This document shows, in pieces, positions 27,049 through 30,962 of a stretch of DNA of 64,000 bases. This DNA is from Candidatus Binatia bacterium (GTDB taxonomy: Bacteria; Vulcanimicrobiota; Vulcanimicrobiia; Vulcanimicrobiales; Vulcanimicrobiaceae): the NCBI GenBank assembly GCA_035544215.1, contig DATKHY010000007.1, positions 992,001 through 1,056,000 of the forward strand, in the 5' to 3' direction. Position 1 is the first letter of the stretch, and the number at the start of each line of letters is the position of its first letter. The position numbers and the translations under genes were made by a program. The notes under the pieces are model-generated. The model did no database searches, was not told the DNA's origin, and saw nothing but the letters and a program-made list of their open reading frames with translations.

Positions 27049-27056
27049 CCTCTCTT

Positions 27057-27213
27057 TGCCGTCCTTCGACTCGCTGCGCTCGCTCAGGACTGCGAGGCAC
27101 GCGCGTCCTTCGACTTCGCTCGCTACGCTCGCTACGCTCAGGATGACACAGGGAGTCCCTCGACAGAGCCTGTCCTGAGCGAGCGAAGCGAGTCGAAGGG
27201 CTCAGGATGACAA
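27057..27213. repeat. Cluster of dispersed palindromic repeats
   Basis: At least three copies are packed between two convergent genes: cgtccttcgactcgctgcgc, cgtccttcgacttcgctcgc and cctgtcctgagcgagcgaag. They lie in both orientations and can form long hairpins. The position just after both stops would suit bidirectional transcript ends; that role is inference. Confidence 0.8.
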
Positions 27214-27223
27214 TCGGAGGCAG

Positions 27224-28732
27224 CTACGTGCCGGTGACGCGGGCGACGACGCGCTCGACCTTGACCACGCGCGTCTTCGTCCAGCGGTCGTGCAAGAGAA
27301 CGCGCCGCCAGATGAAGCTCAGCGGCACGATCGCCCACCATACGAGAAAAACGATGAAGTAGCGCGCGATCGTGCGCATGATGCTGGGTTTGCGAAAGTC
27401 GGTCGTGACGACGCGCAGCCCGGCGATCATCATGCCGAAAGTCTGTCCGGCGAAGATCACGAGCACCGCCAGATACAGCGGGAACCAGAAGAAAAATCCG
27501 AGCCGGCGAACGAAGCCGTTGGTGAATGCCGCGATGGAGTCGGCTGTGATCGGCTGGTTGTTTCCGAGGTCGACCCCGATTCCCAGATCGGTCAGCACGA
27601 ACGGCCCGAGCCGCGCCTCTTCGGTCGGGGTCGCCTGCGGCGCCGGCGTGGCCGGCGGAGGCGTCGCTTTTGTCCCGCGCGCATGCTGCTTGCCGCGTAT
27701 CGTGACGTTCCCGAGCGCCGACGACGTCTCGACGTCGCCGGGCGAGATCGTCACGTTCGTGTTTCCCCTGTGGGTCCCGCCGGCGACGCTGCCGCCGAAC
27801 GACGTGATGATCGCGCTGACGACGACCGCGTCGATACCCCATGCGGCGAAGCGCCGCCACCAGCCGGCGCAGTCGCGCGTCGCGACGGTGGTCTGCCCCG
27901 GCGCGGCCAGCGCCGGCGGCTCGTCGCTGCGCTCGCGCAGGAACCACGCCTCGGCGTTCTCGTAGCGCTGCGTCGCTTCAAAGGCACGCAGCGACGCGAT
28001 CCGCCGCGTCGCATACGGTTCGCTGCTCAGCCACTCGCCCCAGCGCAGCACCGAATCGCTCTGCACCTCGGCATCCTGCTGCGCGAACTTCTCGTAGTCG
28101 ACCATGCGGCCGAAGGAGTGAAATGCCGCCATGCCCATCGCCCGAATCGCGGCGTCGACCGAGCCGCAGCACAGCAGGCCGACCTTGTCACAGGTCAGCG
28201 CGCAACGCCGCAGCCACGCGCCGAAGATCAGCGAGATCAGCGGGTTCTCGTTGCCGTTGACGCTCAGCAGCGAATGGAAGCGCGTGTGGCCGGCCGCGAT
28301 GTGGCCGAGTTCGCGGCCGATCATGAAGGCCAGCTCGTCGTCGGAGAAGAGCTCGATCCAGTGACTCGAAAGCACGAGCGCGTACGGCTCGCCGAAGCCC
28401 AGCGCAACGACCGGAACGTAATTGTCCTCGCGGACGAAGACGAACGGCATTGGAATCTCCAGCGCAGCGCACGCGCCCTTGACGATCGTGAAGACGCGCG
28501 GATACTGCGTTTGGTGCACCCGCACGCTGGACCCGAGCAAGCGCCCGCGCGCCAGCGTGACGTAGACCATCGCGATCACGATGAAGAGCGCCACCTGCGA
28601 CGCGCCAATCGACTCGTGGAGCACGTACCCGATCAGCAGCGCCGCGGGGAATGCCAGGAGCGCCGTCATCCAGAACGACGCGCGTTCCGACGGCTCTCGG
28701 AGCGAGCCAGGCCCCGCAAAGAGGAAATGCAC
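27224..28732 (-). CDS. M48-like/RDD membrane fusion with a lost zinc site
   Basis: A 502-residue protein. Two N-terminal membrane spans precede an M48 (HtpX-like) peptidase-like region at residues ~65-230. The HExxH motif is R140-E-L-G-H144, so the first zinc His is Arg. The downstream motif usually ExxxD is A178-L-T-C-D182, so the third ligand (Glu) is Ala. Both can be reached by single base changes. Residues ~288-480 are an RDD domain (GWWRRFAAWGIDAVVV). Two metal ligands are missing, so proteolysis is unlikely. A structural or regulatory membrane role is inferred. It follows the Nramp-like gene on the same strand, 6 bases downstream. Confidence 0.85.
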   Translation of the reverse strand: MHFLFAGPGSLREPSERASFWMTALLAFPAALLIGYVLHESIGASQVALFIVIAMVYVTLARGRLLGSSVRVHQTQYPRVFTIVKGACAALEIPMPFVFVREDNYVPVVALGFGEPYALVLSSHWIELFSDDELAFMIGRELGHIAAGHTRFHSLLSVNGNENPLISLIFGAWLRRCALTCDKVGLLCCGSVDAAIRAMGMAAFHSFGRMVDYEKFAQQDAEVQSDSVLRWGEWLSSEPYATRRIASLRAFEATQRYENAEAWFLRERSDEPPALAAPGQTTVATRDCAGWWRRFAAWGIDAVVVSAIITSFGGSVAGGTHRGNTNVTISPGDVETSSALGNVTIRGKQHARGTKATPPPATPAPQATPTEEARLGPFVLTDLGIGVDLGNNQPITADSIAAFTNGFVRRLGFFFWFPLYLAVLVIFAGQTFGMMIAGLRVVTTDFRKPSIMRTIARYFIVFLVWWAIVPLSFIWRRVLLHDRWTKTRVVKVERVVARVTGT

Positions 28733-28738
28733 GAGACG

Positions 28739-30004
28739 TTACGTTCCGTGCGCCATGAAATAGAACATCCCGACCGTCGCGCCGCCCATGAGCGCGAAGG
28801 TCGCCCATCCCCACGCGCGCGCCAGGCGCGAGCTCGTCCATTCGCCCATCAGCTGCTTGTTGGACGCAAGCGACACGATCACGCCGATGAGCGGCACCGC
28901 CGCGATGCCGTTGAGCACCGCGGACCAGAAGAGCGCCTTGATGGCGTCGATGTGCAGCAGGTTCATCGCGATCCCGATGAGGATGCCGGCGGCGATGATC
29001 GCATAAAAGCGCGGCGCGCGACCCACCGGCTCGCTCAACCCCTCGCGAAAGCGAAACGTCTGCGCGGCCACGTAGGCCGACGAGGTCGCCAGCACCGGGA
29101 CCGCGAGGATTCCCGTGCCGACCATGCCGAGCGCGAAGAGCAGCTCCGCGAAACGGCCCGCCAGCGGGCGTAGCGCCTCCGCGGCCTGCTGCGCCGTCGC
29201 GATGTCGTGACGCCCGTGCGCGCCCAGCGTCGACGCCGTGGTCACGATGATGAAGAACGCGACGAGGTTCGAGAAGATCATCCCCGTGTTTACGTCGGCG
29301 TGCATGTTGTGGATCTGTTTCTCACTGGTTCCGCGGCGGTCCGCGATCGTCGTCTTTCCGGCCTCCTTGTCCTCCTCGACCATCAGCGACGACTGCCAGA
29401 AGAACAGATACGGCGTGATCGTCGTTCCCAGGACGCCGACCATCGTGGAAAGCCACCCCGAATCCAGCCGTACGCGCGGGACGGCGAAGTGCAGGAACAC
29501 ATCGCCCCACGGCGGCCGAACGACGAACGCGGTAATCACGTATGCAAACAGCGCCAGCGTCAGCCACTTGAAAATCTGGGCGATCTTCGCGTACGACAAA
29601 TACGTCTGCACCGCGATCAGCCCGATCCCGAACAAAAAGACGAGCGCGTCGACCGGCAGCGGCAGCACCAGGTGCAGCGCGTCGGCCATGCCGCCGATGT
29701 CCGCCCCGAGGTTGAACGTATTGGCGACGATCACGAGCGCGGCGAGCGCGTAGGCAAGCCAGAACGGCAGGCGCTTGCGCATGATCGCGGCGAGGCCCTC
29801 CCCGTTGACCATCGAGATGCGCGCGCACATGCCCTGAATCACCGACATCATCGGCGTCGAGATCAGCGTCAGCCACAGCATGGAGTAGCCCGTCGCGGCG
29901 CCCGCGACGGAGTACGTCGAGATGCCGGACGGATCGTCGTCCGCCGCGCCCGTGATGAGGCCCGGCCCGAGTACGCTAAAGAACTTGCGGATTCGTAAGA
30001 GCAC
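28739..30004 (-). CDS. Nramp-family transporter with altered metal motifs
   Basis: A 421-residue protein with about 11 membrane spans and the LeuT fold expected of Nramp. In TM1 the usual DPGN is D24-P-S-G27. In TM6 the usual (A)xxMPH is T194-T-I-T197-P-Y199, so the transition-metal-binding Met and His are replaced. Nramp-related magnesium transporters (NRMT) are known to lack the selective Met. A substrate other than manganese or iron is therefore likely; Mg2+ is one guess. It precedes the M48-like/RDD gene in an apparent operon. Confidence 0.85.
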   Translation of the reverse strand: MLLRIRKFFSVLGPGLITGAADDDPSGISTYSVAGAATGYSMLWLTLISTPMMSVIQGMCARISMVNGEGLAAIMRKRLPFWLAYALAALVIVANTFNLGADIGGMADALHLVLPLPVDALVFLFGIGLIAVQTYLSYAKIAQIFKWLTLALFAYVITAFVVRPPWGDVFLHFAVPRVRLDSGWLSTMVGVLGTTITPYLFFWQSSLMVEEDKEAGKTTIADRRGTSEKQIHNMHADVNTGMIFSNLVAFFIIVTTASTLGAHGRHDIATAQQAAEALRPLAGRFAELLFALGMVGTGILAVPVLATSSAYVAAQTFRFREGLSEPVGRAPRFYAIIAAGILIGIAMNLLHIDAIKALFWSAVLNGIAAVPLIGVIVSLASNKQLMGEWTSSRLARAWGWATFALMGGATVGMFYFMAHGT

Positions 30005-30879: not shown

Positions 30880-30932
30880 GAGCGCTTCGACTCCGCTCAG
30901 CACAGGCTTCGTCGAGGGCTCAGGATGACAAG
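30880..30932. repeat. Dispersed palindromic repeat, copy 5
   Basis: The copy contains cgcttcgactccgctcagca, then gtcgagggctcaggatgaca. It separates the divergent PEP-mutase-like and PDZ-GAF receptor genes, so it lies within their promoter region. Confidence 0.75.
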
Positions 30933-30962
30933 AGGGGTGGCCGAAGAATGCGGCTTTCTTAG

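Follow-up and report, generated by a model that had tools for sequence, protein, structure and literature searches.

The locus considered here raises the question of whether a protein that joins an M48-like metallopeptidase domain to an RDD membrane domain is still a peptidase and, if it is not, what it may do instead. The window, by which we mean the whole analysed stretch of 64 000 nucleotides, contains the corresponding gene at 27224–28732 on the minus strand, on which the neighbouring transporter gene described below also lies. The gene is a single open frame of 502 residues with a GTG start, a start call that is backed by the orthologues, which begin with M/V-H-x-LF-x-G-P. Domain-based automated annotation would name the product an 'M48 family metallopeptidase', which, judging from its residues, is probably wrong on activity here.

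Domain organization and predicted fold

The protein was assigned to M48 by profile and by fold. Pfam matched Peptidase_M48 to residues 79–250 (37.5 bits against a cut-off of 20.3) and RDD (PF06271) to residues 289–484 (43.4 bits against a cut-off of 24.1), and both domains were present in all 39 of the aligned members. An AlphaFold2 model of the window protein was built with this 39-sequence alignment (mean pLDDT 79, pTM 0.72). Residues 4–75 (28508–28724) contain two N-terminal transmembrane helices (16–37 and 44–67), identified from the DSSP assignment of the model and from hydropathy peaks at residues 29 and 51. The M48-fold domain follows at residues 76–265 (27938–28507) and includes helices 131–147 and 164–189. 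The RDD domain, residues 286–490 (27263–27877), contributes helices 291–311, 397–428 and 451–474 and carries the Arg-Asp-Asp signature of the RDD family; across the M48/RDD family R294 and D301 are invariant and D482 is near-invariant, being conserved in at least 90% of members. Within the RDD domain a linker (residues 312–396; 27545–27799) is mostly of low confidence, with pLDDT mostly below 50 at 318–368. It is the fastest-evolving part of the protein, with the highest dN, and is missing or short in some orthologues.

The top PDB rows returned by Foldseek were BlaR1, ZMPSTE24, BepA, a putative zinc peptidase (PDB entry 3c37) and HtpX (PDB entry 3cqb), the last of these with a probability of 1.00, a TM-score of 0.63 over the target and an r.m.s.d. 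of 2.5. The E-values for the whole model were weak (best 0.058), and the fold support consists of local matches to M48 proteins. The charges of the basic C-terminal tail and the analogy with HtpX would place the M48 domain in the cytoplasm.

Loss of the zinc ligands and selection on the domain

The active-site helix of the window protein reads G139-R140-E-L-G-H144-IAAG-H149, with RELGH in place of HExxH (codons 140–145; 28298–28315), and its second helix reads RRCALTCDK, with A178-L-T-C-D182 (28187–28201) where M48 peptidases have ExxxD. Two of the three zinc ligands, H140 and E178, are therefore absent, as the initial annotation had described, and neither motif of an active M48 peptidase is found in the window protein. 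The same annotation had regarded the protein as a probable pseudo-peptidase fused to an RDD domain, a view that the orthologue sequences strongly support: position 140 is never His in the 79 distinct family sequences (76 have Arg and one each Lys, Ala and Cys). Orthologues retaining HExxH, named beforehand as the observation that would count against this view, were looked for in these 79 sequences and none was found. The homologous fold, the lost catalytic residues and the retained selection described below are those expected of a pseudopeptidase.

Most genera in two families of the class Eremiobacteria have an orthologue, and a genome nearly always contains a single copy. A phylum-wide search gave a match in 45 of 70 genera, a count that takes in a few distant M48 matches. 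Genome contigs were also scanned with patterns derived from close relatives, which distant members could escape, and gave matches only in Eremiobacterota. A plasmid search returned only distant M48 proteins, and the four examined (L087–L090) retain HExxH.

The remaining active-site positions vary to different degrees across the 79 sequences. Position 141 is Glu in 70 and Gln in nine, position 144 is His in 78 and Asn in one, H149 is replaced by Asn in three and D182 is unchanged in all. Position 178 is Glu in 40, Ala in 17, Thr in 11, Asp in eight and Ser in three (Ala, Thr or Ser in 31); in the genus of the window Ala is found throughout, except for Thr in one member. His is present at position 140 in 10 of the 11 outgroup M48 sequences. 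The nearest M48 relatives (from the same phylum and from Actinomycetota, Bacteroidota and Thermus plasmids) retain HExxH and Glu, with the exception of L136, which has KELGH. In a tree calculated without the site columns the 79 family rows are separated from all other rows by a branch with an SH-aLRT value of 98; the outgroup includes several long branches, and its internal order and the root of the tree are uncertain. Since R140 is near-universal and A178 is limited to the clade of the window, His140 was lost first and Glu178 later: on the aligned sequences the former loss is ancestral to the family and A178 is a clade-level change.

The exceptional relative L136 belongs to another family of the same phylum. 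It is an M48 protein of about 281 codons on the minus strand of a partial contig, retains the Glu ligand, ends in a zinc-ribbon-like tail and is possibly a second, separate M48 protein in which the first His has been lost.

The missing ligands might in principle reflect a sequencing error, a local mutation or a decaying pseudogene, and a few copies in metagenome-assembled genomes (L123 and L086) do carry a stop or a frameshift, these being either assembly errors or real breaks. The probability of this explanation is practically nil: the same substitutions recur in dozens of genomes that are independent of one another, the frames are intact and the dN/dS values lie far below 1, and the recurrence of R140 in the orthologues of these genomes excludes a sequence error or local mutation.

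Beyond the ligands, the surrounding region has been rebuilt. H149 and position 178 are 29 residues apart in 131 of 131 family rows, against 42–51 in the nearest HExxH relatives, so that this segment falls short of that of the nearest active relatives by 13 residues or more; in two very divergent HExxH relatives the spacing is 25–30. The M48 edge-strand motif NA[FY] has been lost across the family and is mostly replaced by P[VAI][VA]. Residues R101, D103, R140, R151, S154, S157, E162 and N163 are near-invariant in the family and atypical of its relatives; five of them (R151, S154, S157, E162 and N163) lie in H149 and the family-specific loop HTRFHSLLSVNGNENP (residues 149–164; 28241–28288).

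Purifying selection on this dead domain is very strong. In eight orthologue pairs its dN/dS ranged from 0.010 to 0.148, and in seven of the eight it was lower than that of the RDD core. These values bear on a reading in which the RDD domain alone is functional, as an ion antiporter like that of H. andaensis, and the M48 domain is a relic. The conserved signature R294, D301 and D482 would fit such a role, and one RDD protein has been reported to be an Na+(Li+, K+)/H+ antiporter (PMC5996927), in which R124, R129, D154 and D158 are essential for antiport. A relic domain would drift, however, and the M48 domain is the more constrained of the two; in addition, deletion of sppI, which encodes an RDD protein of Bacillus subtilis, produced neither a salt nor an alkali phenotype (PMC7568657). 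We regard the relic reading as very unlikely.

Slightly less improbable, but still quite unlikely, is that the protein remains a peptidase that relies on another metal or set of ligands, such as H144 together with C177, C181 and D182 in the derived clade, or on Arg140-assisted chemistry. E141, H144 and D182 are mostly retained (70, 78 and 79 of 79, respectively), which would be compatible with a residual or altered metal site, and C177 and C181 are both present in 31 of the 31 sequences with Ala, Thr or Ser at position 178. Against this, nine sequences have Gln at position 141 and one has Asn at position 144, and the substrate-edge motif is gone from the whole family. C177 and C181 are also missing from most members with Glu178, and the association of the two cysteines with position 178 amounts to only one or two independent pairs on the tree, for which reason they were rejected as a replacement metal site.

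Genomic neighbourhood

An Nramp-related transporter gene of the NRMT type (28739–30004) lies 6 bp upstream of the M48/RDD gene, and from this pairing the initial annotation had drawn the hint of a scaffold or metal-related role. The transporter carries DPSG and TTIT (TTITPY), matching the DxxG-TxxA/T pattern of the Mg2+-transporting NRMT clade; the DxxN and A/CxxM site of Mn2+/Fe2+ Nramp proteins (PMC8806188) is absent from its sequence. Its closest solved relative is PDB entry 7qia (E = 6.5e-48, against 5.3e-18 for the next); that 7qia is EleNRMT follows from the 7QJJ deposition in PMC8806188. The transporter is predicted from these motifs to carry Mg2+ rather than Mn2+ or Fe2+. Most of these genomes also encode several more distant Nramp paralogues.

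A joint function of the two proteins in metal homeostasis, with the M48/RDD protein as scaffold or regulator, would be in keeping with the 6 bp gap on the same strand and with the finding that in 12 of the 16 judgeable genomes of the genus the transporter gene is adjacent or no more than about 0.6 kb away. The linkage is nevertheless limited to this genus, and even there the M48/RDD gene is kept without a nearby Nramp gene in four genomes (G008, G014, G015 and G017). The pair was sought in other genomes and was not found in any other genus: orthologues of both genes are present there but unlinked, with Nramp orthologues of 60–78% identity located elsewhere and, in G037 and G039, occurring without an M48/RDD gene. 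The two genes were accordingly rejected as a conserved pair, the hint of a metal role found no support, and we give a joint function little probability. The transporter is treated as a genus-level neighbour and not as part of the system.

In other genera the M48/RDD gene adjoins UbiA and periplasmic-binding protein genes or a GGDEF/PAS gene, or sits between GntR-ABC and CMD/TPR-regulator genes. An older block of UbiA, PBP, ABC, GntR and TPR-regulator genes is intact in the genome of the window (L194, C7:1312500–1321500), about 295 kb away, and lacks both the M48/RDD gene and the CMD gene. Since the old block survives at this distance without it, the M48/RDD gene has most likely moved, leaving its old neighbours behind, and the transporter is a recent neighbour. 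An operon neighbour at 6 bp can therefore mislead, the transporter pairing having probably arisen by relocation inside one genus.

No neighbour or partner conserved across the whole family was found; GGDEF/PAS, Peripla_BP_6, UbiA, GntR-ABC, CMD, TPR-regulator, BrkB and ADH genes differ by clade. In many genera (L091, L094, L126 and others) a PAS-GGDEF diguanylate cyclase gene immediately precedes the M48/RDD gene on the same strand, with a gap of about 30–140 bp, and in another clade the M48/RDD gene lies 3–33 bp after a periplasmic-binding-protein gene. Short repeated sequences, for example 'gcgctcgctcaggatgaca' and 'cttcgactc', are present in the window at the intergenic positions 27055–27215 and 30880–30940 and resemble dispersed intergenic repeats.

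Proposed mode of action and comparison with known systems

We consider the product of the gene likely to be an M48 pseudopeptidase that is anchored in the membrane, lost zinc catalysis in the common ancestor of the family and most probably works by binding. According to the alignment, the first zinc His was replaced by Arg in that ancestor, the segment between H149 and the Glu ligand is shortened and the substrate-edge motif was replaced. A later return of catalysis appears unlikely because the general base E141 and the ligands H144 and E178 were each lost subsequently in some lineages. As the dead domain is under strong selection and has a near-invariant polar set of its own, it most likely functions by binding a protein or peptide on the cytoplasmic side of the membrane, to which the RDD domain and the N-terminal helices would anchor it. 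The likeliest role, by analogy with the iRhoms, the FtsHi proteins and the RDD protein SppI acting on SppA, would be to regulate another membrane protein, possibly a protease, or to act as its adaptor. The genome of the window retains other M48/M56-type proteins with HExxH-like motifs, and an active cousin of this kind is available as a possible client.

Arg140 may, speculatively, take the place and the charge of the lost zinc and pair with E141 or D182. A more specific version, which we put forward tentatively and consider rather unlikely, is a class-wide membrane regulator in which the M48 zinc pocket has become a metal-free binding pocket in which Arg140 takes over from Zn2+ and R101, D103, R151 and E162 form a new conserved set. 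Such a regulator would recognize one specific peptide or ligand and in this way control another membrane protein. If true, this would be the first description of such a pseudopeptidase system in M48. M48 is not mentioned in a 2024 review of metallopeptidase pseudoenzymes (PMC11266112), and a literature search for M48 with RDD found no papers. The gene is kept in most genera of two Eremiobacteria families, and its stepwise losses date each change.

Like the M48 peptidases (PF01435; HtpX, Ste24/ZMPSTE24, BepA and LoiP), the family has an active-site helix followed by a second helix with the ExxxD site, keeps H149 and D182 and has two transmembrane helices ahead of the domain. It differs from them in that the first zinc His is replaced in all members, the Glu ligand is lost in the clade of the window, the NA[FY] motif is lost, the inter-ligand segment is shorter and an RDD domain has been added. 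The nearest relatives found, at about 25–31% identity, are soluble M48 proteins with zinc ribbons or other tails (L131, L133 and L134 from the same phylum, and others from Actinomycetota and Bacteroidota plasmids). These share with the family the helix R/K-[KR]-x-E-x-[ST]-x-D-R-x-G-L but, unlike it, keep HExxH and Glu, and no RDD domain was seen in those examined; three of them, from G057, have zinc-ribbon-like Cys pairs at the C-terminus.

The RDD half resembles PF06271 proteins such as SppI and the H. andaensis antiporter in its R294/D301/D482 signature and its three hydrophobic segments; unlike either of them, it is interrupted by a variable linker and joined to an M48 domain. In B. subtilis the membrane protease SppA is bound and inhibited by SppI (PMC7568657). 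Metallopeptidase pseudoenzymes act by binding, as regulators or scaffolds (PMC11266112), and those of the ADAM, M14, M16 (alpha-MPP) and M41 (FtsHi) groups have likewise lost zinc ligands and kept the fold. They belong to other peptidase families than the M48/RDD proteins, yet one of them, FtsHi4, has REAAV for HExxH and in this way also carries Arg in place of the first His.
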